Of a stretch of 51,443 nt of DNA, positions 15,145-28,837 are shown in pieces; the first letter of the stretch is position 1, and each line of letters opens with the position of its first letter. The position numbers and the translations under genes were made by a program. The DNA is from Minisyncoccota bacterium (GTDB lineage: Bacteria > Patescibacteriota > Minisyncoccia > Phycocordibacterales > UBA5272): assembly GCA_018061825.1 (NCBI GenBank), contig JAGOTK010000001.1:57800-109242 (forward strand). The letters are read 5' to 3'. The notes below the pieces were generated by a model. It worked only from the letters and a program-made list of their open reading frames with translations. It was not told the DNA's origin and made no database searches.

Positions 15145-16455
15145 CTAATCCCCCGATTCTAATATATTTCCTATATTTATAGACCAAAGAGAACCGTCAT
15201 TTTTGTTTATAAACAATAAATGATCTTCATTTTTATTTACCTTTAAATCTTTTATATCAAATTTATTATCAACTCCACCATCTATATTTAAATCAAAAAA
15301 TAGCTGACCTTTAGGATAATCTTTATTAACTATAAAAATATCGTCTTGCCAAGATGTTAAACCTTGATACCAAGCATCAGGTAATCTTATATCATAATTT
15401 TTTATCTCTTTTGGAGCACCACAAAATATAACATTAGAAAGAAAACATTTGTTAGATAAAGAATTAAAATTTAATTCAGAAAGACTACTATCTTCAAAAT
15501 AATTCCCACCGAAATTCTCATTTTTATATAATCTTAGTCCATTGTTAGTCAAAATTGAAGTCATTATAGAACTATTATTGACTAAATAAGATGATCCTAT
15601 ATGACCATAATAGATTTGCTTTAATGATTCTGTGTCAGTGTTAAATTTATACAAAGGACTCTTTTCTAAAGAGGTGTCATTGTTGTAAACATAGATTTTT
15701 CCAGAATCTGTAATCTGTGATTTCCATGTTGAGATTTCAGAAGAATATATTTTAGTGTTACTAGTACCATCAATCAAATACCAGTCACTAAATAAGTCCT
15801 TTTTATTTCCTGTTGTTTTATTTTTAGTTACTATATATAAAGCTTTAGTAGAGTCTAAAGAAATAGAAATATTTGTAATATTATTATCTAAAGTTTTTAT
15901 GTTTTTTAATTCATTTGGTAGTGAAAAATAGTCTGGAATACTTGCTATCAAAGATTTTATAGTATTGTTGGCTGAATATTGTAAAATTACTTTTTTTTCT
16001 CCATATATATCTAAAAAATAAGCTTTTCTAATATTTGGAAAGGACGAATTTGTTATTTGTATAGGAGTAGAAGTAGGTTCGTTTAAATTTTTCTGATACA
16101 AAAATCCTGTATCACTATCTACGAATATTAAGACAGGATTATTATTTTTATAATAAAAGCCATAGCCTGCTACAGGTCTATCCCATACATTTATTAAGCC
16201 TTCACTATAATAATTGCCATCATAATTATCATTTGTTTGATTTTGATTCTCATCATCACTATTGTCACTATTATTTCCTCTTGAGTATAGACTAGTACCT
16301 TCCCCTTTTGCTACTATTTTTCCAGGAGTATTTGTTGTTTGTTTTTTATTATTTAAAAAAAATAAGATTCCAACAACTATTAAAAAAATTACAACAATAC
16401 TTATTATAATTACTTCCTTTTTATTTTTTTGTAAAAATGATTGATTTTCTTCCAT
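15145..16455 (-). CDS. Membrane-anchored extracytoplasmic protein, possible beta-propeller; last gene of the secretion locus
   Basis: This is a 436-residue protein of unknown function. A charged N-terminus (MEENQSFLQKNKKE) precedes one span (VIIISIVVIFLIVVGILFFL). The outer domain is Asn/Asp/Ser-rich. Segments such as SLDSTKALYIVTKN, GSLWSINIGN and DSDTGFLYQKNL look like the strand-turn repeats of TolB-type propellers; that is only a resemblance. I chose the ATG at 16455, 10 nt after the upstream stop. A TTG 39 bases further upstream would overlap the neighbouring coding region. Confidence 0.75.
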   Translation of the reverse strand: MEENQSFLQKNKKEVIIISIVVIFLIVVGILFFLNNKKQTTNTPGKIVAKGEGTSLYSRGNNSDNSDDENQNQTNDNYDGNYYSEGLINVWDRPVAGYGFYYKNNNPVLIFVDSDTGFLYQKNLNEPTSTPIQITNSSFPNIRKAYFLDIYGEKKVILQYSANNTIKSLIASIPDYFSLPNELKNIKTLDNNITNISISLDSTKALYIVTKNKTTGNKKDLFSDWYLIDGTSNTKIYSSEISTWKSQITDSGKIYVYNNDTSLEKSPLYKFNTDTESLKQIYYGHIGSSYLVNNSSIMTSILTNNGLRLYKNENFGGNYFEDSSLSELNFNSLSNKCFLSNVIFCGAPKEIKNYDIRLPDAWYQGLTSWQDDIFIVNKDYPKGQLFFDLNIDGGVDNKFDIKDLKVNKNEDHLLFINKNDGSLWSINIGNILESGD

Positions 16456-16465
16456 AAAATATTGT

Positions 16466-18016
16466 TTATTGTCCAGTATCTGATAAATGCCCAAATTCTT
16501 TTTCTTTATATTTATTAGTAAGACCTATTTTTAGACCTTCTTGCATTATAGTTTTCCATTTATCATCGTCACAACTAGACGCTCCTTTTTTGCAACCAAC
16601 ATTTAGTCCTGTATTAAGATCTACAGCATTGCCTAGTGAATGATTACTTCCTGTAGCTCCTCCATTTTTACAGGCTGTAAAACATTTATTTCCCTCTTTT
16701 GTATAACCGTTGTCACATATTTTACCTTGATACTCATCTGACCGATATGCTGAAATCACATCTAGATGAACATTAAATTTTGCACTATATAAATCATCTA
16801 ATTTTTTTAATTTATCAGCAATATCAACATTTACCATACATTTGTCTGGATTTCCTCCATTTTCAGAGCATGTCACAGAACCTTTAAGATAAGTTTTTAT
16901 ATTGACCATTTTAGCAGGATCTACAGAAGCAAGCTTTTTACAAACACTTGTGTTTGACCCTGTTTGAGCCGCTAATGAAGTAGTATTTATAGATTTTATA
17001 GAAGCTGGACATTGTCCTTCGTATATCATTCCTATCACACGACCACATCTACTTTTAGTTTGCTTGCACCATTCTGAGTCTTGGACTTCATAAGCTATTT
17101 TGTCTTTATCTAGAGTTGGTAAAACAGTTTTAAGTTTAGTAAACTTATTTAAAGTACCATCTCCAGCGTAAGCTATGTTTTTTATAACATTTTGATATTT
17201 TATTGGAAGTTTATTAAAAGCAGCTTCTCCACCAGCAAAAGCATGTACTGCTGGTAAATGTGCTTTTAATTCTATTGTTAAAAGATCGTCTGCTTGCTTT
17301 TTTGTTATTGTCTCACCTCCACAGTTTCCTATAAGATCTTTACTTCCTTCCGCACCCCTTTTACAACTTGTGAGATTTGTTAACTGTGTATCTTTTATTC
17401 CAATTTGTGATAGATATTTTTTTGGCTCATTTGAAGCGTCTAGATTAAATCCCCATCCTATAGTTGGATAACCTTTAGAGTCCATATAGGCTTTATCTGC
17501 AAATTTGTCATCCTCTTCGTCTTGTTTTATTTGATCTTCAAATGATTTTGCATTATAGGCTAAATTTGCAACACATACAGAGCTCACAGCATTATCGTTA
17601 TTATCTTTTGAAGCTACCAACTCTGCTTTAGTATTAAAAATCCAAGATCCATAATCTGGATTTATATATGTAAATAAAAGATTTACAAAGATAAAAATTA
17701 AAAAAGAAGTGATAGCATTTTTTATGATTTTATTTCCTTTTTGTTGATCGTAAATATTATCAAAAGTGCCTTTTAATACAGCGCCTTCTATTAATTTAAA
17801 TATGACTAAAGTTATTATGGCTGCTGCTGCCATTGTACCTACATATCCCGCTATATCTGATAAACCTCCACTTTCTGTGTTTGATATTTCTGTGACAGTA
17901 GCATTATCTAATCCTCCTGATATGTTTCTATAAATATCTGTATTAGAATTTTGAGCAAAAACAAAATTTAAGCTTAATGCAATATAGAAAAAGAGTATAA
18001 ATATTTTTTTATTCAT
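16466..18016 (-). CDS. Secretion-locus wall hydrolase: membrane domain + T4-type lysozyme + M15 peptidase
   Basis: This 516-residue protein carries two wall-degrading domains. A signal peptide ends at FVFAQ. Two spans follow at about 55-85 and 98-118 (VirB2-like hydrophobic layout). A GH24 lysozyme domain begins near 165: EEDDKFADKAYMDSKGYPT then IGWGF, matching T4 lysozyme's catalytic Glu, Asp and Thr spacing. Near 395-510 lies an M15/VanY-type D,D-peptidase domain, with AYRSDEYQG, the zinc motif SNHSLGNAVD near 458 and EFGH as probable third ligand. It would cut both glycan and peptide bonds, presumably to let the secretion apparatus through the wall. Its own leaderless-type promoter is 6 nt upstream. 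Zinc and catalytic residues appear intact. Confidence 0.85.
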   Translation of the reverse strand: MNKKIFILFFYIALSLNFVFAQNSNTDIYRNISGGLDNATVTEISNTESGGLSDIAGYVGTMAAAAIITLVIFKLIEGAVLKGTFDNIYDQQKGNKIIKNAITSFLIFIFVNLLFTYINPDYGSWIFNTKAELVASKDNNDNAVSSVCVANLAYNAKSFEDQIKQDEEDDKFADKAYMDSKGYPTIGWGFNLDASNEPKKYLSQIGIKDTQLTNLTSCKRGAEGSKDLIGNCGGETITKKQADDLLTIELKAHLPAVHAFAGGEAAFNKLPIKYQNVIKNIAYAGDGTLNKFTKLKTVLPTLDKDKIAYEVQDSEWCKQTKSRCGRVIGMIYEGQCPASIKSINTTSLAAQTGSNTSVCKKLASVDPAKMVNIKTYLKGSVTCSENGGNPDKCMVNVDIADKLKKLDDLYSAKFNVHLDVISAYRSDEYQGKICDNGYTKEGNKCFTACKNGGATGSNHSLGNAVDLNTGLNVGCKKGASSCDDDKWKTIMQEGLKIGLTNKYKEKEFGHLSDTGQ

Positions 18017-18043: not shown

Positions 18044-18790
18044 CTACTTATTTATTGAAAAGTTTACAAAAGTCTCACCTTCTTGCAATATTTTTTGATT
18101 ATTTTTTATTTTTAAATTTAATTTATTTACAGCCCCAGTAAAATATTTGAATATATTACTATTATTTTCTCCTGAGAAGACATTGTCTTCTGTCCAAGAA
18201 TAATTTAAAGAAGGATCAAGAGTATTTTTTGCTGAGAAAAAATAAGGCTCAGCTATAATAGTAAAAGAACCATCTTCATTTACTTTCAAATCCTCATATT
18301 TTTTATTTAAAGCATTTGAATAGGTCAATATACTGTTAGAATTCTTTTTATAAAGAATAGGAAACCCAGAAAAAGGTCTTATTTCAATACTTTTTTTACC
18401 TAACAATGTGTTTTTTGTTTCGTCAGTATAAATTTCTAGAATTAATGTATTTACAGGTAATAACTTATCTAAAGTAAAATAAATAGTTTTTGATCCAATT
18501 CCTGAATAATTATATAAATAATAATCATTGTATTTCCAAGCATAATATAAAGCATTAGTGTTTATTTTATTTACATAATTAGTATCGATTATAGCTATGG
18601 CTTTGATATAAGATTCTTCTCCAGCTAAAGCTCTTCCCTCATAAAAATTTGGAGTATAGCTGTCTATAGATTGCCACTCTATATTTACATTTAAGTCATA
18701 AGAACTATTTTGTGAAAAAGATATTCTAGAAATAGTGATAGAAAATATTATAGTAAGTATTATTATTTTAATAATATTATTTTTTTTCAT
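18044..18790 (-). CDS. Exported protein of the secretion locus, unknown family
   Basis: This 248-residue protein has a clear signal peptide (MKKNNIIKIIILTIIFSITISRISFSQ). The mature part is rich in Tyr, Asn and Ser and looks all-beta. LNYSWTEDN in the second half resembles the YxW cores of Ig/PKD-like domains. It sits 11 nt after the VirB4 gene, so it is in the same unit. Its position suggests an extracytoplasmic component of the apparatus; no function can be assigned from sequence. Confidence 0.78.
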   Translation of the reverse strand: MKKNNIIKIIILTIIFSITISRISFSQNSSYDLNVNIEWQSIDSYTPNFYEGRALAGEESYIKAIAIIDTNYVNKINTNALYYAWKYNDYYLYNYSGIGSKTIYFTLDKLLPVNTLILEIYTDETKNTLLGKKSIEIRPFSGFPILYKKNSNSILTYSNALNKKYEDLKVNEDGSFTIIAEPYFFSAKNTLDPSLNYSWTEDNVFSGENNSNIFKYFTGAVNKLNLKIKNNQKILQEGETFVNFSINK

Positions 18791-18801
18791 AGTTAAGATT
18801 T

Positions 18802-20607
18802 TTATTTATTCGCTTCTTGTTTTTTCTTTTTTGCTTCGAGCAACTGTGCTGGATTTGTAGTCACTATCTGATCTTCAACATAAGAAGAAATGACTTTTAT
18901 TGCGACATGTTTTTGTCCTGCAAAAAATATACCTTCTCCTACACCAGATTCTAATAGTAAATATTTTTCTTCATCTGTGAGATTAAATGTCTTTTGTACC
19001 AAGTCTATACTTGAAGGAGATTGTTTTAATAAAAGCTGCATACTAGAGTTTGTAATAATTGGAAGTCCATATGGAGATCTTAAAAAGTCTCCAACGTCTT
19101 GAGAAATAGTAGCTAAACCTAAAAAGTATTTTCTACCTCTTTTTGCAAGTCCAAATAAAAAGGATGCAGTATCTTCATTTTTCATCATTATCCAAGCCTC
19201 GTCTATAATTAAGAGCCTCTTTTTTAATTCTTTTCTAACTTCATTCCAAATAAAATGAGTGATAATATACATTGCCACAGGTTTTAATTCATCCTCCATG
19301 TCACGAATAGAAAAACAGATTAATTTTTTATTTATGTCTACGTTTGACGGTTTACCAATAAAGCCAGACCATACACCGTCAATATATTTTGATAATCTTT
19401 GTTGTAGACTTTGAGACCCTTCTATTCCAGAAAGTACATCAGCAAAATCTGATAATAATGGAAAATCAAGCCCTTCTAAAGTCTCAGTTTCTTCTGTGAT
19501 ATCTTTTATTGCATAAGTCTCTGTCAAAGCTCTATCTATGATAGCGTCTTCTTCAGGAGAGAGTCCACCAAGCATCACTCTCAAAAGACCTACTAGACTT
19601 ATAATATTGCTTCTCAAAACTTCACCAACAGACTCAGTATCATTTATGGATGGTAAGTCAAAAGGATTTATATGATGATTTGAATTTAATGATATATCAA
19701 AATATCTACCACCTACAGATTCAGCTAAATACTCATATTCTTTTTCTGGATCTATGATAATCACATTGGTATCAAACATCAAAGTTCTTAATATTTCTAA
19801 TTTTGTATAATAAGATTTACCTGATCCTGAAGTGGCAAAAACCATACTGTTATAATTCTCGAGAGAGAATCTGTCAAAAAGGACAAGAGACCCGTTGTGT
19901 CTATTTAGACCATACAAAATTCCCCTATCACTAGAAAGATCAAAAGACAAAAATGGAAAGAATGAAGATAATGGAGAAGTGTTTATTTGATTTGTAATTT
20001 TTAACTCATCTGTTCCAAAAGGAAATACTGTTTTCAATGCTTCAGCTTCTTGAAATAATGCAGGTCTCAAATAAATAAGTTTACTTTCTAAAATGTTTTT
20101 TATCTCAGTCTCTGTTTTTCTTATTTCTTCTGGATCATCTCCGTATATTGATATATAAAGTCCTACTTCAAACATTTTCTCACTTGCCTGCTGTAAAGAA
20201 TCTCTTAAATCTTCAAGATCTGTAAGAGCTGTCTCAAGTTTTGGATCACGAACCTCTCCTTTTTCTTGCTTTGTAAAAATCTGACTTTCGACTTCTGCTA
20301 CTTTTTTTTGAAATTTCTTCATCATTTCTGTAGTAGCTAAAGGAGTTATATGTAAAGATACATTAAAAATTTTATCTAGATTTATAAGAGGTGCAAGCCA
20401 AGAATCGTCTAAATATCTAGGATAGGAAATAACAAAAAAGCTTTTAACAGTTTTTCCTGATAAATTTATACTTTGAGATTCTATTTTTAAGCCTGCTGGA
20501 GCAATTAAGTCTTTTAATTCTTGACTAGCTTTATCATAAATCTGATCACTTGTAAGAGTGTTATTATTTTCTTTATTTGTTGTTCCAAAAATATCTAATA
20601 ATCCCAT
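18802..20607 (-). CDS. virB4: VirB4/TraC-type secretion ATPase
   Basis: This 601-residue cytoplasmic ATPase energises type IV secretion or conjugation. The N-terminal region (about 1-235) includes a helical segment. The motor domain has Walker A FATSGSGKSYYTK near 260, IIIDPEKEYEYLA, Walker B RLLIIDEAWIMMK near 468 and the downstream GLATISQDVGDFL motif typical of VirB4. The family is usually longer (about 800 residues). The missing N-terminal part is probably supplied by the separate gene at 20617-21204. It starts 9 nt after that gene. Confidence 0.93.
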   Translation of the reverse strand: MGLLDIFGTTNKENNNTLTSDQIYDKASQELKDLIAPAGLKIESQSINLSGKTVKSFFVISYPRYLDDSWLAPLINLDKIFNVSLHITPLATTEMMKKFQKKVAEVESQIFTKQEKGEVRDPKLETALTDLEDLRDSLQQASEKMFEVGLYISIYGDDPEEIRKTETEIKNILESKLIYLRPALFQEAEALKTVFPFGTDELKITNQINTSPLSSFFPFLSFDLSSDRGILYGLNRHNGSLVLFDRFSLENYNSMVFATSGSGKSYYTKLEILRTLMFDTNVIIIDPEKEYEYLAESVGGRYFDISLNSNHHINPFDLPSINDTESVGEVLRSNIISLVGLLRVMLGGLSPEEDAIIDRALTETYAIKDITEETETLEGLDFPLLSDFADVLSGIEGSQSLQQRLSKYIDGVWSGFIGKPSNVDINKKLICFSIRDMEDELKPVAMYIITHFIWNEVRKELKKRLLIIDEAWIMMKNEDTASFLFGLAKRGRKYFLGLATISQDVGDFLRSPYGLPIITNSSMQLLLKQSPSSIDLVQKTFNLTDEEKYLLLESGVGEGIFFAGQKHVAIKVISSYVEDQIVTTNPAQLLEAKKKKQEANK

Positions 20608-20616
20608 ATTTTTAAT

Positions 20617-21204
20617 TTAGTTGTTGCCTTTTGGCGTATCAAGCTCATTAGGATTAAATAATTTATAAAATAAATTTACAAGCTCCTCGGTTTCGGCCAT
20701 TTTTACAGATAATCCTAAAGATGATAATCCTGAAGATACGATACTTACTCTTTGCATAATTTGATTTCTATTTTTTACAAAGTCTTCTTGAGACATTCTT
20801 TTAGTATTTGATACTACATTTATCACATCATAAGGTATAACGACATAGAAAATTTTTGTCATGATACTTTGCTCTTCTGTAAACTTTTGTATAAAGTCTA
20901 TATACTCTTTTATTTGTATTTTTAAGAGGTCTTCTTCCACTTCATTTTGCCTTTCTCTTAAAAGTGATAAATAACTTCTAATATCCAACTTTTTTGATTG
21001 TAAAAATATCTCAATACTAAAATCTAAAGAATTTAAAAAAGTCTGAAAGCCAGTTATGATACCAATCTGTTCATCTTCACTCTTGAGAGATAGATTCAAT
21101 GAAGTTGTTGAAAGTAAAACTCTCATATTCCCATTATTTAATATCAAAATACCTTCTTTGACTTCTTTTATTGGTACAAAATTTTGACTAGCATTCTTTA
21201 TCAT
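20617..21204 (-). CDS. TraC-like N-terminal domain protein paired with VirB4
   Basis: This 195-residue protein begins TASQNFVPIKEVKEG-like (NASQNFVPIKEVKEGILIL) and continues through LNLSLKSEDEQIG and a central helical region. This pattern occurs at the front of conjugative VirB4/TraC ATPases and, in CPR genomes, often as a stand-alone protein. It carries no Walker motifs. It directly precedes VirB4 (9 nt), so the two probably act as one split ATPase. A leaderless-type promoter (TGTTATACT) lies exactly 6 nt before the ATG at 21204. Confidence 0.8.
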   Translation of the reverse strand: MIKNASQNFVPIKEVKEGILILNNGNMRVLLSTTSLNLSLKSEDEQIGIITGFQTFLNSLDFSIEIFLQSKKLDIRSYLSLLRERQNEVEEDLLKIQIKEYIDFIQKFTEEQSIMTKIFYVVIPYDVINVVSNTKRMSQEDFVKNRNQIMQRVSIVSSGLSSLGLSVKMAETEELVNLFYKLFNPNELDTPKGNN

Positions 21205-21249: not shown

Positions 21250-21756
21250 TTATGATTTAAATAAGTGTTCTCTGAGATTTACGGTTTCTTTTTTATTTTC
21301 TGATACGGGTATTTCTTTTTTGATCTGATTGTTTTGACTAAAAATATCTAGATTTTTAGAAAGCTCTCTAATCTTTTCAGGAGAAATTACTTTTAATTGT
21401 ATATTTTTATTTAAATTTACTTTATTTTCTTCTGCTATTCTTATTTTTTTTGTTTCAAAATCTTCTTTTTTAAATTCACTTTTATGCCAAATCATAGTCT
21501 TGTCGCCTATTATAAATTTGTAAGCAGATTCAAGTACATCAGCAAAAGGTCTATCATTTATTTTTACAAAAGCTAAAGCTATAAATGTACCAGAAAATAA
21601 TAGTATTAAAGGAAAGGCTATCAACATGCTAGGTATAAGCTTCCAGAAAATATAAGCAAATCCTCCGGCCCCAAGTATGTATCCAAATTGCTTAAAAGTA
21701 AAAGGCCCAAATACTTTATCTTCTATATCTAAGAATTGAGGGACTCTAAATTGCAT
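21250..21756 (-). CDS. PrgI-family membrane protein of type IV secretion
   Basis: This 168-residue protein matches the PrgI layout. The opening is QFRVPQFLDIEDKVFGPFTFKQFGYI, two adjacent spans follow at about 25-42 and 45-65, then NDRPFADVLESAYKFIIGDKTMIWHK. A cytoplasmic tail of about 60 charged residues follows. PrgI proteins are inner-membrane VirB3-like partners of VirB4, and here it lies just upstream of the VirB4 pair. An inverted repeat overlaps its -10 (21762-21780). Confidence 0.88.
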   Translation of the reverse strand: MQFRVPQFLDIEDKVFGPFTFKQFGYILGAGGFAYIFWKLIPSMLIAFPLILLFSGTFIALAFVKINDRPFADVLESAYKFIIGDKTMIWHKSEFKKEDFETKKIRIAEENKVNLNKNIQLKVISPEKIRELSKNLDIFSQNNQIKKEIPVSENKKETVNLREHLFKS

Positions 21757-22939: not shown

Positions 22940-25900
22940 TTATGCCGCTTTATTATCTGCCTCTTCTCTATTATTTCTATTTTTATTTAACACTGATAGT
23001 TCTTCAGAGGTATACATTTGTTTTAATTTTCCAGTTTGATCTACTGATACAGAGCTTTTATCATTATCTCCCTCTCCTAAAGGAGAGTTAAAAGGTTTAT
23101 CATCTGTAGGGTCATTATTATCTTTTTTTGGCAACGCTTCATTCAAAACCTTATCTTGATACTGATTTTCTTTCATGTCTTTATGTTCTTGTATTTTGCG
23201 ATCAAGTTGCTCTTGACTAAATTCTTTTTCTATCTTTCCATTTACCATTTTTTCTACACCTCCATATTTTTCTTGCAGTCTGGTCTTTAATGAATTTTGA
23301 GTATTTAAATCTTGAGCAGAAGGTATAAATCCACTATTTTCTGCTTTTTTTATTTCGTTTTCTGCTTCTTGTCTTAATTTTACTTCACTTAAAGATTTAT
23401 CTTGATACAGAGTTTCTCTTTTTGCTTTATAGTTAGACACATCTTGTTTACTATATTTTGCTTGTAGCCTGTCTCTCAATGAGTTTATATTTTCTTGATT
23501 TTTTACATTTGATTTTGGCTCAGATTTTTGTTCTATTTTTTGTAATGATTCTGTCAAAGAGGCTGTCGAAGATTCTTCAGAGTCTTCTTTGTTTGATTTT
23601 TTATCAAGGTCAGATATGATTTTTGTTAGAGTTATTTTTCTTTTTACTGGATCTTTTTCACTTATAGCATTTTTAAATTCATTTTTAATTTTATTATTTT
23701 CTGGTTTATTTATTTCTTTAGAAAAATGCTCTGAACCCTCCCCGTTTTCTTTAAAGTGCTTATCTATCACAGCTGTGATACTTTTTTCTCTTTTGGTCTC
23801 ATCTGTCTCATTGTGCGCTTTGTCAAATTCTTCATTATAAGCAGAGTCATTGTTGAGTCTTTCTTTTATAGAAGGCTTCCAATTTTCTTCACCAATACTT
23901 TTAGCTATTTGTTTTCCATCTACACCACCAAAAGCTCCATTTAATCTTTTAATATTTCTTTCTTTACCTCCACTATCTAAAGAGTTGTGGTATTTACTTG
24001 CATTAAATAGCTTTTTTTGATATCTCTTTTCAGCACTTTTCTGTGTTCCTTGTCCAAAAGATGAGGCGTTGGATCCTGAAAAATTTGCAGCATTTTGAAA
24101 TCCTTTAATATTTCTAGTGTCAAAAGTTGCTTTTGATGCTCCATTATATAATCCAGTCATAAGTCTATGTTGAGTTGATCCTTTTTTACCCATCATCCAT
24201 CCATTATTTTTTGCAGCTAAAGCTCCTGCACCTACAGTGTTTCTTAAAATTTTTGCACCTCCACCAAATGCGGCTCCTCCTGTATATTTTGATATTTGTC
24301 CTCCAATTTTTTCACCAAGACTTCCACTCAAGCTCTTTGACACACTTATCGCAAGTTGAAGAACTGTTATCACAATTACAGAAGACAATATTCCTGCCAT
24401 AAATCCTGTGGTATTTGCTGGAGCAGAACTATCGAGAACTGGACCATTCGTAACCATTTCTGTAGCTTTTGTACCAATTTTTACAGCTAAAACAACTAAA
24501 AACATAAATATTGGACCAAGCATCACATTTCCTGTAAAATTATCTATAATTACTTTTCTGTATTTATCTGTAAATTCTGTGAGTCCTTCAGGTATTAGCA
24601 TGATAGGAGAAAAAATCATACATAGTAAAAGTACTATTGCTCTAGTAAGTATAAGTATTGCCCCTTCAAATAACACAAACACTCCTACTACACTCACCAG
24701 CACTTGGCCTGCTGTATAAGGAATAGCGTCCCAACTTCCTAGTGATATGCCATAGTTGTCATTTACATAATTACTATTAGCTCCACCATTATTTAAACTT
24801 AATATATTTTTAAATACTGTAGATATTGGCTGAACTGCTATCTCGCTATGGGTTAGACTTCTATATAAATAGATCGTGATTATATTTGATTGATCTATTA
24901 TCCAACCTGTCACTGTAAAAGAAAAATACACAAATAAAGCAGTTATTATTATTTTAGGCAAAAGCTTATTCATGTTTTCTCCATCATCATCTATCAGTCT
25001 TCTTATTATTAAATAAAAAACTATAAAAGTCATCACAGATACGAGTAAAGAAAGTATTACGGTCTTATATATAATGTATGCTCCAGAACTATTGACTAAA
25101 TCTTTAAAATTTATAATCCCTTCATTATAAATCCAGTCAAATAGAGATCCTGCCAAGTTAACAAATATTACAGTAAGTGCATTTATGCCTAATAATATAT
25201 TATTTATAAGAAAAGCAACTATACTACATTTAGAATTTGATGTGTTGGTGACTATTCCCCAAAGACCTATATCCTTCTTACAAGGAATAGGTTCAGCTTT
25301 ATTTATGTCCATATCTTTAGGGTCTGATATGGTAGTCTGCGGATTAGTCGAAGAAGCTGCTTGTCCTATAGAAAAAGTAATACCATTTATTACAGCAGCA
25401 GCATAAGCATTTCTAGGATTTATTTCACCAGATTTTAATTCATTTTCAGAGTAAGAAAAATTAAAAAATCCTCCATCATAAGCTAGCATTTTTTGTGTTT
25501 TTGCTACTAATAGTATTTTTGGGTTAACTTTTGTTATATCTATAGTCGTAGAGCCTGTCAAAAATCTATCTAGTTCTTTATAAAGATAAACTCTCCTCCA
25601 AATTCTGACAACATTAGAGATTTGGTCTCTCTTCAGCAGATCTATCGAGTATATTATGGCATTTTGAAAAAAGATTTCTGTATCAGAGCTCATTTTGTCA
25701 TATACTGGTAATAGCTTTTCGTCTAATATGCTAGATGCGTTATCAATAATCGTCTTGATCAGAGCTATAGCTTTTTTGTCTTCTGCTGTCTGATCAGATA
25801 TGGCTACACTATTCTCTATTGTATTTTTTTTATCAATAGTAATTGAGTTGTACTCTTCTGTCAAGTCTTCTTTCAATTTCAATAAGTATTCCTGAATACC

Positions 25901-26188
25901 TTTCTCTGCTAGTATTATTTCATTACTGGTTAATTTTCTATTATCACCCACATTTTTGTGTAAGGTGTATTCTTGAATTACACTATTAACACGAATTTCA
26001 CATTCAGTTGATAAAGAAATTTCTGAAAATAAAGTAGTACATTCATTGGTTTCCAAAAAAGAGCTAATTTTGCCAGGGTTTATGTAGATAACAGCTTCTG
26101 TCTTTTTTATATTTGAATTACTAAAAAGTATTAAGAAAAGAAAAATAGCTATTAGGTTCTTACTTTTTTTATTTAGATTCCATTTCAT
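22940..26188 (-). CDS. VirB6/TrbL-like polytopic membrane protein with long charged tail
   Basis: This 1082-residue protein is probably the inner-membrane channel component. A signal-like segment (IAIFLFLILFSNS) is followed by an extracytoplasmic region of about 300 residues. Six or more spans then lie between about 320 and 650 (for example ILLGINALTVIFVNLAGSLF, KTVILSLLVSVMTFIVFYLI, GPIFMFLVVLAVKIG). The conserved-looking segment FSPIMLIPEGL lies between spans, as in VirB6/TrbL. The last 430 residues are cytoplasmic-looking and charged, with a duplicated NSL-x(2)-RLQ-x-KY ... YQDK unit near 885 and 975. Its own leaderless-type promoter follows the terminator at 26277-26313. Confidence 0.85.
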   Translation of the reverse strand: MKWNLNKKSKNLIAIFLFLILFSNSNIKKTEAVIYINPGKISSFLETNECTTLFSEISLSTECEIRVNSVIQEYTLHKNVGDNRKLTSNEIILAEKGIQEYLLKLKEDLTEEYNSITIDKKNTIENSVAISDQTAEDKKAIALIKTIIDNASSILDEKLLPVYDKMSSDTEIFFQNAIIYSIDLLKRDQISNVVRIWRRVYLYKELDRFLTGSTTIDITKVNPKILLVAKTQKMLAYDGGFFNFSYSENELKSGEINPRNAYAAAVINGITFSIGQAASSTNPQTTISDPKDMDINKAEPIPCKKDIGLWGIVTNTSNSKCSIVAFLINNILLGINALTVIFVNLAGSLFDWIYNEGIINFKDLVNSSGAYIIYKTVILSLLVSVMTFIVFYLIIRRLIDDDGENMNKLLPKIIITALFVYFSFTVTGWIIDQSNIITIYLYRSLTHSEIAVQPISTVFKNILSLNNGGANSNYVNDNYGISLGSWDAIPYTAGQVLVSVVGVFVLFEGAILILTRAIVLLLCMIFSPIMLIPEGLTEFTDKYRKVIIDNFTGNVMLGPIFMFLVVLAVKIGTKATEMVTNGPVLDSSAPANTTGFMAGILSSVIVITVLQLAISVSKSLSGSLGEKIGGQISKYTGGAAFGGGAKILRNTVGAGALAAKNNGWMMGKKGSTQHRLMTGLYNGASKATFDTRNIKGFQNAANFSGSNASSFGQGTQKSAEKRYQKKLFNASKYHNSLDSGGKERNIKRLNGAFGGVDGKQIAKSIGEENWKPSIKERLNNDSAYNEEFDKAHNETDETKREKSITAVIDKHFKENGEGSEHFSKEINKPENNKIKNEFKNAISEKDPVKRKITLTKIISDLDKKSNKEDSEESSTASLTESLQKIEQKSEPKSNVKNQENINSLRDRLQAKYSKQDVSNYKAKRETLYQDKSLSEVKLRQEAENEIKKAENSGFIPSAQDLNTQNSLKTRLQEKYGGVEKMVNGKIEKEFSQEQLDRKIQEHKDMKENQYQDKVLNEALPKKDNNDPTDDKPFNSPLGEGDNDKSSVSVDQTGKLKQMYTSEELSVLNKNRNNREEADNKAA

Positions 26189-26335: not shown

Positions 26336-28837
26336 TTATCTATAATTTTCACACATGTTTATAGTATCATTGGTGAGCTTCTCTCTATCTGCACACACTG
26401 AAGTAGAAGTAGAACTTCCTGAAGCGCAAAAATCATTCACAGCTTTTGGTATGTCTTTACATATGTTTTCAATTTCTAGATCAGTTGAGCTTATTTCTAT
26501 AGTTTCTGGGTCTGACAAATTACCACAAATACTGTTGCCAATTTTGTTACATAAAGCAGATTCAGAATATGTACCACTGTCATTAGGGCTTACAAGGTAT
26601 GTGAATTTTTTTGGAACATTAGGAGTGTAATCTCCCAAGGAGGACAGATTTAAATTTTTTCCTAATTTATAGGTTTTAATCCTAAGTGAAAGTAAATTAT
26701 CTTTTGTTTCTATATTTTTAATTTGCTCATTTGTCGGTATCATATATAAAAGGCTGTCTTGATCCATTTCAGCGTCGTCTCTATATTCGTTTATATAGTT
26801 GTAATCTAATTCAACGTCAAGAAGATCTTGATCAGTGATAGTATCTTTAAGTAAGCTGGCAGTAAAAGTATCTGGGATATCTGCTGTCTTAGCGTCTTTT
26901 AATTGAGCAACCAATGATACAAGTTGCTTCTTTTTAGCATTATTTTTAATCATACTTTTTACTAATGCTTGGATTTTTTTCTGTAGCTCTTGTGAGGCTA
27001 TGTTTATTTTTGAAAGAGCTTTCTTTCTAGTAAATAAATCAGCAGCATTTTTCATAATTTTATTAGCAGATCCAAGTATTCCGATATGTAAGTTAATATT
27101 GGAGGTCATACTCATGGTGGCTAATTTAAGATTAGCGGCACTTCTATTTTTTGTAATTAAGAAATAAGTATAGACCATATCATTTAATTTTTGAACATTT
27201 AAACCATTAAGCGTGTCGTATCTTAATATCGCGTCATTTATTTTTGCGGAATTTCCTGTATTTGAATTGTAATCTAATTTTGATTTTGTTGCTTGATCTG
27301 CTATGTCTTCAGATTTTTTATCAAAGCTCATTAAAGAATCTATTGAGCTAGAAAGTTGAATATATTGAGCATTGCTTGTATTTGTCACATCTCCTAAGCC
27401 TAGTATTCCATTTAAAATAGCTGCATATTTTCCAACTTTTTCAACTTTTCCGACTATATTACATACAGTCTTGTCTCCAGTACATTCTTTTTTATCCTTT
27501 TCTGTATTTTGAGCACTTGTCAAAATACTCAAATAAGGAGATTGTCTCGCAGCTTCAATATCTGCTTTTATTTTAGCTGCACTGTTTAAAGTGTCTGTGA
27601 CTATATTGTCACAAAAAGCAGAAGATGGATCTGTAGGGTCAAGTTTTTTTTCTTTTCCCTCTTTGTCTAAACATTTTTCATTTCCTATAATTCCCCCATT
27701 GGCATTGAATTTACTTACAGCTGAAGATTGAGAATCTGTAATTTTTTTATTTATTTCAGATTGCATAGCTGCTTGTATTCCAGAAGGTGAATTTGTAGGA
27801 TCTACTAAAGCTGCTCTAGTCAAAGGGCCACCATATCCTGCATTTGCTATAGAAATAAAAGCAGCTTGTGATGATTTTCCAGATATAGGTTCTTTCTTTT
27901 TTTGAAATGAAAGCATTGCAGTCTGTGTCAGATCATCTATCTCTCCTGTAGCATCTAGACCTTGATCTTTTTGAAAGTTTTTTATAGCAAGAGATACAGA
28001 TTCGTTAAATGTAGAACTTATCGCATTTACAGTATAACCATTTGCCATTAGAAAGTTTTTTAGATTTTCTATATCAGCACTAGAAGAATTTTCATTTATA
28101 GGTATATTCCAAGAAGATATATCATACTGATCATTTTGATTTGAAGATGAGTTTTTTTCTGTAAGACTGGAATCGCAAAGCTCATCAATATCTACATTTT
28201 TTAGAGCTGCTTTTGGCTTAATCCATCCTTTAGGTTCTCCATTTTTTATAACATCTTTTAATTTGCTATCATTACATATTTCCTTTTTAGCAATATCTGC
28301 AAGTTCTACAACTTTTAATTTATTTACAGTCCCTTGTGCTTCACTTCTTATACTTTTTACAATATCAGAAAGAGCTGTAGATTGATAAGGATTGCTATCT
28401 GTATCTTTAAGATCATCTAGTGTTTTCTTTATAGCATTTGTAGAAGATTTACTTAGGTATCCATTTAAGTCTGTGATTATTTGTTGACCATTTGTAAAAA
28501 TATTTGTAGAAGCATCTTTTGTTGTCCCTAAATTTTTTGTGACTATATCACCTATTTGACTTATAGCTAATCCAGAAGCGCCTGCGGCTGCTTGAGTTAA
28601 ATCAAAATTTTTAAGTGCCTGAGAAGTATTTTTGACAGTATCATAAGTATTTTTAACTTGTTGAGCAGTTTTTAGTCCTTCTTTCATTTGATTTACGACT
28701 TGAGATATATTTACTTTTAAATTTGTGGCGTCTATCACAGGACCAATAGCAGAAGCTTTATTTAAAGACATTGAGCAAATAAACAAGACAATTAAAGTTG
28801 CAGCTATTTCTTTTTTAAAGATGTTTTTGTTTTTCAT
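26336..28837 (-). CDS. TrbJ/VirB5-like secreted protein with an inserted peptidoglycan-binding domain
   Basis: This 833-residue protein has a signal peptide (ending NKASA). It then shows PVIDATNLKVNISQVVNQMKEG-type helices, the hallmark of VirB5/TrbJ pilus-tip proteins. Near residues 242-315 is a PG_binding_1-like unit (NLKNFLMANGYTVNAISSTF ... AIKNFQKDQGLDATGEIDDLT). The rest is helical with scattered cysteines (EKCLDKEGKEK, CTGDKTVCN), suggesting disulfides outside the membrane. It is second in the locus, 11 nt after the 284-residue membrane protein. It could anchor the apparatus to the wall. The VirB5/TrbJ assignment rests on the N-terminal pattern only. Confidence 0.78.
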   Translation of the reverse strand: MKNKNIFKKEIAATLIVLFICSMSLNKASAIGPVIDATNLKVNISQVVNQMKEGLKTAQQVKNTYDTVKNTSQALKNFDLTQAAAGASGLAISQIGDIVTKNLGTTKDASTNIFTNGQQIITDLNGYLSKSSTNAIKKTLDDLKDTDSNPYQSTALSDIVKSIRSEAQGTVNKLKVVELADIAKKEICNDSKLKDVIKNGEPKGWIKPKAALKNVDIDELCDSSLTEKNSSSNQNDQYDISSWNIPINENSSSADIENLKNFLMANGYTVNAISSTFNESVSLAIKNFQKDQGLDATGEIDDLTQTAMLSFQKKKEPISGKSSQAAFISIANAGYGGPLTRAALVDPTNSPSGIQAAMQSEINKKITDSQSSAVSKFNANGGIIGNEKCLDKEGKEKKLDPTDPSSAFCDNIVTDTLNSAAKIKADIEAARQSPYLSILTSAQNTEKDKKECTGDKTVCNIVGKVEKVGKYAAILNGILGLGDVTNTSNAQYIQLSSSIDSLMSFDKKSEDIADQATKSKLDYNSNTGNSAKINDAILRYDTLNGLNVQKLNDMVYTYFLITKNRSAANLKLATMSMTSNINLHIGILGSANKIMKNAADLFTRKKALSKINIASQELQKKIQALVKSMIKNNAKKKQLVSLVAQLKDAKTADIPDTFTASLLKDTITDQDLLDVELDYNYINEYRDDAEMDQDSLLYMIPTNEQIKNIETKDNLLSLRIKTYKLGKNLNLSSLGDYTPNVPKKFTYLVSPNDSGTYSESALCNKIGNSICGNLSDPETIEISSTDLEIENICKDIPKAVNDFCASGSSTSTSVCADREKLTNDTINMCENYR

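Follow-up and report, generated by a model that had tools for sequence, protein, structure and literature searches.

A gene in the T4SS cluster of a patescibacterial genome encodes a VirB2-like pilin hairpin, a T4-type (GH24) lysozyme domain and an M15 (VanY-type) peptidase domain in a single polypeptide. The protein is probably (about 0.72) a T4SS-dedicated peptidoglycan hydrolase that does the work of VirB1, with activity, location and docking predicted. The gene lies in a stretch of 51,443 nts, hereafter the window, from a tiny Minisyncoccota bacterium of parasitic type with a genome of 0.54 Mb (G000; 17 contigs, 93% complete). A sequence-only reading had described a triple fusion of a membrane domain, a T4-type lysozyme and an M15 peptidase; all three parts are supported and the gene was found to sit inside a T4SS cluster (Table 1). 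Of its "two membrane spans", the two-helix hairpin stands, but the protein has three hydrophobic stretches in all, the N-terminal one being a signal peptide. Both elements were read from the orthologues, and the helices also appear in a low-confidence model. The survey of relatives that had been proposed recovered the intact fusion in two other genomes of the genus (G001 and G002; 517 and 483 aa, identity 46-47% and 31-35%), flanked in both by the same neighbours. Hence, an assembly artefact was rejected as the origin of the fusion. All 14 cysteines of the protein lie within its exported part.

Table 1. Features of the fusion gene and of its T4SS neighbourhood (positions of the window).
Feature	Position	Strand	Basis
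Conserved neighbour with N-terminal TM, other side	15145..16455	(-)	Iterated profile; in 86/92 loci
Pilin-hairpin / GH24 lysozyme / M15 peptidase fusion, 516 aa	16466..18016	(-)	ATG start; ORF, Pfam, orthologues in two further genomes
Signal peptide, aa 1-22	17951..18016	(-)	Hydrophobic N-terminus then A-Q, kept in 3 orthologues; boundary by eye
T4SS_pilin/VirB2-like hairpin, aa 51-120	17657..17866	(-)	Pfam, hhalign, leave-genus-out HMM; ends with N-P motif common to bare pilins
GH24 (T4-type) lysozyme domain, aa 157-336	17009..17548	(-)	Profile vs PDB, model pLDDT, structural alignment
E167, catalytic Glu (T4 lysozyme E11)	17516..17518	(-)	Alignments, residue check
D179, catalytic Asp (T4 lysozyme D20)	17480..17482	(-)	Alignments, residue check
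T185 (T4 lysozyme T26; Ser in L118)	17462..17464	(-)	Alignments, residue check
M15 (VanY-type) zinc peptidase domain, aa 395-513	16478..16834	(-)	Pfam, profile vs PDB YodJ
H459, zinc ligand of SxHxxGxAxD	16640..16642	(-)	Invariant in 3 orthologues
D466, zinc ligand	16619..16621	(-)	Invariant in 3 orthologues
E507, catalytic base in the ExxH motif (L118 Glu, L119 Asp)	16496..16498	(-)	Alignments
H510, third zinc ligand	16487..16489	(-)	Invariant in 3 orthologues
Conserved secreted neighbour, virB4 side	18044..18790	(-)	Iterated profile; no Pfam match; in 87/92 loci with ORFs
virB4, C-terminal ATPase part (TraG P-loop)	18802..20607	(-)	Pfam 2e-23
Probable N-terminal VirB4 part as separate ORF (candidate)	20617..21204	(-)	Weak TraC_F_IV, E 0.033; position
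PrgI (VirB3-like)	21250..21756	(-)	Pfam 1.7e-10
Large polytopic protein, VirB6-like	22940..26188	(-)	By position and by eye

Membership of the lysozyme domain in GH24 is strongly supported by fold and profile, and muramidase activity is predicted. On its own, the window protein matches Phage_lysozyme of Pfam below the cut-off (aa 172-257, E 0.019), while the orthologue L118 alone matches at 2.3e-8. A profile of the lysozyme region from the three orthologues found T4 lysozyme in the PDB at 9e-21, with the catalytic motif aligned. In a model of aa 140-516, pLDDT is about 80-97 over most of the domain, which superimposes on T4 lysozyme with a Z of 14.4 (2.7 Å over 149 residues). Foldseek placed the T4 gp5 tail lysozyme and T4 lysozyme first for this model, in a list made up of lysozyme chains alone, as one domain fills the list. 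Furthermore, an alignment of 24 sequences, of which 21 are viral, shows no substitution of E167 or D179. Structure prediction, which had been suggested as a check, thus bears out the lysozyme, whereas confidence is low where the model covers M15: the full-length model built from three sequences had a mean pLDDT of 51, and a deeper alignment improved the lysozyme but not the M15 part.

The assignment of the C-terminal domain as an M15 VanY-type peptidase is supported by profiles, catalysis again being predicted. VanY (PF02557) matches aa 395-504 above the curated cut-off (E 6.2e-7), and an M15 profile of the three orthologues retrieved YodJ (7.8e-8), D,D-carboxypeptidases and LdcB from the PDB. 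Profile searches, named beforehand as the test of the two enzyme domains, therefore found both, and the active-site residues, noted as intact, are in place in the sequence of each. The domain shares SxHxxGxAxD, ExxH and the zinc ligands with VanY, YodJ and LdcB, from which it differs in being fused behind a lysozyme. Similarly, the GH24 domain shares its fold and its catalytic Glu/Asp/Thr with T4 lysozyme and gp5, but at about 30% identity or less, and it is part of a predicted exported, membrane-anchored protein encoded in a cellular T4SS locus.

The hairpin is probably a divergent member of the pilin type. T4SS_pilin matches aa 51-118 with an E-value of 0.0016 and 18.9 bits, below the Pfam cut-off of 26.6. 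Comparison by hhalign of the N-terminal region of the fusion with a profile of 14 bare pilins encoded at this locus gave a probability of 96.4% (E 1.3e-9). A hairpin profile of our own was built from 53 seeds of the surveyed loci, including the window and its two orthologues; when the genus and the genome G003 were left out, it still matched the window at 0.0019 and L118 at 8e-6 (712 ORFs). In the reverse direction, the triple-fusion profile matches the hairpin of a pilin ORF of another genome (G107) at 8.6e-14. VirB2 has a topology in which both hairpin ends are outside. The loop of the window hairpin is basic, and both of its ends would likewise face out. Like the T4SS_pilin (PF18895)/VirB2-like pilins known from Patescibacteria, the protein is encoded in a T4SS locus and has a signal peptide and a homologous two-helix hairpin. 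However, the window protein is not a small pilin free of enzymatic cargo: its 516 aa include two enzyme domains, about 390 aa added to a type of protein described as small in the cited passages of PMC12102498.

The place of the gene is conserved across the order, where 123 of 138 genomes yielded a VirB4. The 6 kb downstream of virB4 were surveyed in 89 of the other 122 genomes (those omitted being mainly contig-end or low-listed), to which the window and three loci chosen by hand (G001-G003) were added, giving 93 loci. A pilin ORF is present in 86 of these loci (92 ORFs in total), or in 82 of 89 without the four chosen ones. Where the pilin ORF and both conserved neighbours occur, the pilin ORF lies between the two in 78 of 83 loci; the five exceptions are L038, L041, L048 and L081, with two pilin ORFs each, and L071, with the order reversed. 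Outside the order, a pilin ORF was found within 6 kb of virB4 in 11 of 60 loci (three less than 700 bases long). The TTG start called at 16494 for the neighbour downstream of the fusion gene is probably too early. When the window genome was searched for a coupling protein, a single match turned up, on a contig other than that of the window (E 4.4e-6).

Other features of these loci were observed in passing. An 833-aa protein at 26336-28837 adjoins the T4SS genes and has a stretch that resembles, by eye, a peptidoglycan-binding repeat, and three adjoining ORFs at 335-2661 have in common a repeat motif some 25 residues long (K.TFNTREER..FA..HN or a variant). In G134, an intein with a LAGLIDADG domain lies near the Walker A motif of VirB4 (L247:156-3959; Pfam Intein_splicing 6.8e-19). 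The same may hold for G063, G066, G119 and G147, which have frame lengths equal to that of G134, as judged from split matches only.

What follows the hairpin is variable. Tails of the 92 pilin ORFs measure less than 40 aa in 17, 40-99 aa in 10, 100-149 aa in nine, 150-210 aa in 38 and more than 210 aa in 18. The 72 ORFs with tails of at least 60 aa were scanned with Pfam, which matched T4SS_pilin in 67 and, at E <= 0.01, a wall hydrolase in 15 (11 of 88 ORFs without the four chosen loci): SLT in five, VanY in four, SLT_3 in two, and M15_4, NlpC/P60, Transglycosylas and SLT_2 in one each, with weak matches for Transglycosylas, SLT_2 and one SLT (L081, L109, L125). Since 17 tails are shorter than 40 aa and most of the others in the order lack a hydrolase recognised by Pfam, a hydrolase at this slot is not obligatory. 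Since the wall-cutting modules found at this place differ between relatives, the cargo appears exchangeable while the hairpin is kept. As judged from these comparisons, the slot predates the window fusion, and this fusion exemplifies a pattern seen across the order, a pilin hairpin whose cargo varies.

A second pair of glycan- and peptide-cutting domains in one protein occurs in G003 (L120), where SLT is combined with a Hedgehog/M15-like domain, termed A7. In L041, such a pair is split over two tandem pilin ORFs, one with SLT_3 and one with a putative metallopeptidase-like tail, termed A8. L081 holds a similar pair of cutters, with a weak glycan-cutting match, and L196, outside the order, combines a pilin with Amidase_2 (2.1e-15). 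The A7 tails (L053, L062, L065, L091, L115 and L120) share an EAWPPT...H...C...D motif and match the Sonic hedgehog N-terminal domain (E 0.0042), a domain related to M15 peptidases; they appear to be bacterial hedgehog-like domains on T4SS pilin hairpins. Thirteen A8 tails share a His/Asp/HWH motif ('TGGTE...HWH'). Their assignment to M15 remains a guess at motif level and is unsupported, the profile comparison giving a probability of 1.2% and the PDB search no match.

Among the remaining, unassigned tails, some look coiled-coil by eye, and the second tail of L038 looks CHAP-like by eye with no match in Pfam. Those of L058, L060 and L083 share P..G.P.GTPVLI.D followed by VGD.G, which recalls chitosanase-like or 3D domains; scanned singly, the L060 and L083 tails gave no match to either in Pfam. 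A second cluster of pilin hairpins was seen away from the T4SS on contig 17 (L137:9970-15212), with ORFs of 86, 198, 331, 373 and 472 aa, of which the 331-aa ORF has PG_binding_1 (1.6e-6) and the 373-aa ORF looks similar by eye. Some inactive homologues of VirB1 have been proposed to be adhesins (PMC12857230, cited passages), and pilin tails with no clear active site could likewise act as such.

The combination found in the window is confined to its genus in all searches. It is present in three of 60 near genomes, all of one genus, and a pattern search of 84,980 species, limited by the pattern, found two loci, those of the same two relatives. Within the class, one of 383 genomes has it, namely the window genome, G001 and G002 evidently not having been drawn; the other class matches to the triple-fusion profile are limited to one region, be it the hairpin, GH24 or M15. 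Outside the genus, the triple fusion was not found in the 60 near genomes, the 383 class genomes or, by pattern, the 84,980 species. One of the class matches, in G771, is to a protein that combines a signal peptide, a hairpin and M15 within 303 aa. Literature searches found no paper on a pilin-hydrolase fusion; the supplements of PMC12102498, outside the search, may list such proteins.

As a T4SS-dedicated hydrolase, the protein would be exported by its signal peptide, after which the hairpin, from its hydrophobicity and charge, would insert as VirB2 does, its basic loop facing inwards and its two ends facing out. The hairpin, a homologue of the bare pilins encoded at this locus, would then dock the protein on the T4SS platform. 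Outside the membrane, GH24 would cut the glycan while M15 would trim or cut stem peptides, so that the machine could pass locally through the wall of the cell itself and perhaps also through that of the host. This reading is favoured by the domains and their catalytic residues, the intact orthologues, the conserved place beside virB4, the variable wall-cutting cargo, the recurrent pairing of glycan and peptide cutters, and the position of all 14 cysteines in the exported part. Against it stand the divergence of the window hairpin, the Asp that replaces the M15 base in one orthologue, the poor M15 part of the model, the many tails in which Pfam recognises no hydrolase, and the low number of pilin ORFs near virB4 outside the order.

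Two other readings give the hairpin a part in a pilus. In the broader one, the VirB2 pilin gene of Patescibacteria has become an exchangeable tool holder: a pilin-type subunit of the T4SS pilus or channel bears muralytic cargo that is swapped between lineages (GH24+M15, SLT, SLT_3, NlpC/P60, amidase or M15) and, placed in the pilus or at its tip, reaches the host at contact; we consider this unlikely. In the narrower one, which is also unlikely, the hairpin polymerises, and the fusion, as a minor pilin or one at the tip, acts as a contact drill that shows its hydrolases to the host wall. The homology of the hairpin to bare pilins at the same place fits a pilin role, as do the clustered pilin-like ORFs with PG_binding_1 on contig 17. 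In addition, T4SS pilin genes are among the highly expressed genes of archaea-parasitising Paceibacteria (PMC10936435, cited passages), and a pilin array is described as essential in S. epibionticum. However, a folded cargo of 390 aa per subunit is hard to fit in a VirB2-type helix, the window hairpin has drifted from the pilin consensus, and no pilus was seen in the analysis or in the cited passages.

The two complementary lytic domains are also consistent with secretion of an enzyme that kills bacteria or lyses the host and thereby obtains nutrients from the host wall, the hairpin being an anchor only and the protein having no role in T4SS assembly, and patescibacterial lytic transglycosylases have been proposed to damage host envelopes (PMC11665869, cited passages). 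This is quite improbable, as the gene keeps its position next to virB4, flanked by two conserved genes linked to the T4SS, and its cargo is exchangeable while the pilin hairpin that bears it is conserved.

GH24 is rare in the order (four of 148 genomes, window genome included), which makes recruitment of the domain from phage likely. Among annotated phage proteins, tail lysozymes of the T4-like kind come closest, with 29-31% identity, in a phage search that returned distant relatives only. In the other three genomes, our hairpin profile found no pilin hairpin in the fetched loci (about 3.3 kb each). That the whole gene is a phage remnant, a holin-like hairpin with an endolysin, is scarcely credible despite this phage affinity and rarity, given a pilin-like hairpin, a conserved T4SS place and flanks of T4SS and housekeeping genes. 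The synteny (78 of 83 loci) disfavours a whole phage cassette, while the GH24 domain by itself probably came from a phage.

The preferred reading, a T4SS-dedicated hydrolase, has close counterparts. VirB1-type enzymes open the wall for the T4SS, and those of Gram-positive bacteria are membrane-anchored with at least one enzymatic domain (PMC12857230, cited passages). According to the same passages, TraG (pIP501), PrgK (pCF10) and Orf14 (Tn916) are T4SS-encoded and membrane-anchored and act on the wall with extracellular domains, of which TraG and PrgK have at least two. The window protein has, by predicted topology, the T4SS-cluster gene, membrane anchor and extracellular wall domains of VirB1 (MPF_FATA). 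However, the domains of TraG, PrgK and Orf14 are SLT/muramidase, CHAP and LytM, while the SLT/muramidase plus CHAP/LytM architecture was not found in the window protein, which instead has a signal peptide and a VirB2-like hairpin that carries GH24 and M15. It would therefore work like VirB1 without being a VirB1 homologue. The sequence-only reading knew of no parallel for a GH24 and M15 pair on a VirB2-like hydrophobic region; a glycan cutter and a peptide cutter on a membrane anchor are already known from TraG and PrgK, and what differs here is the pilin-type anchor and the choice of GH24 with M15. A further parallel is found in Southlakia epibionticum, where peptidase and lysozyme homologues encoded just downstream of virB4 are essential (cited by PMC12102498). 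The neighbourhood and, by annotation, the pair of activities are the same, but the passages of PMC12102498 describe virB4-downstream homologues with no mention of a pilin fusion.

These observations bear on the distribution of VirB1. According to the cited passages of PMC12102498, VirB1 is absent from the majority of genomes that have VirB2, its high association with virB4 is limited to Paceibacteria, and other glycosidases may replace it. Since VirB1-like activity would reside on proteins that a PF18895 search counts as VirB2, the "missing" enzyme could hide in pilins. A pilin-borne hydrolase could thus explain patescibacterial genomes that seem to have VirB2 without VirB1. The role of the T4SS in Saccharibacteria has been termed completely unknown (PMC11665869, cited passages), although the T4SS is essential in S. 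epibionticum. A tethered, swappable wall-cutting cargo would offer a direct experimental handle on the patescibacterial T4SS.
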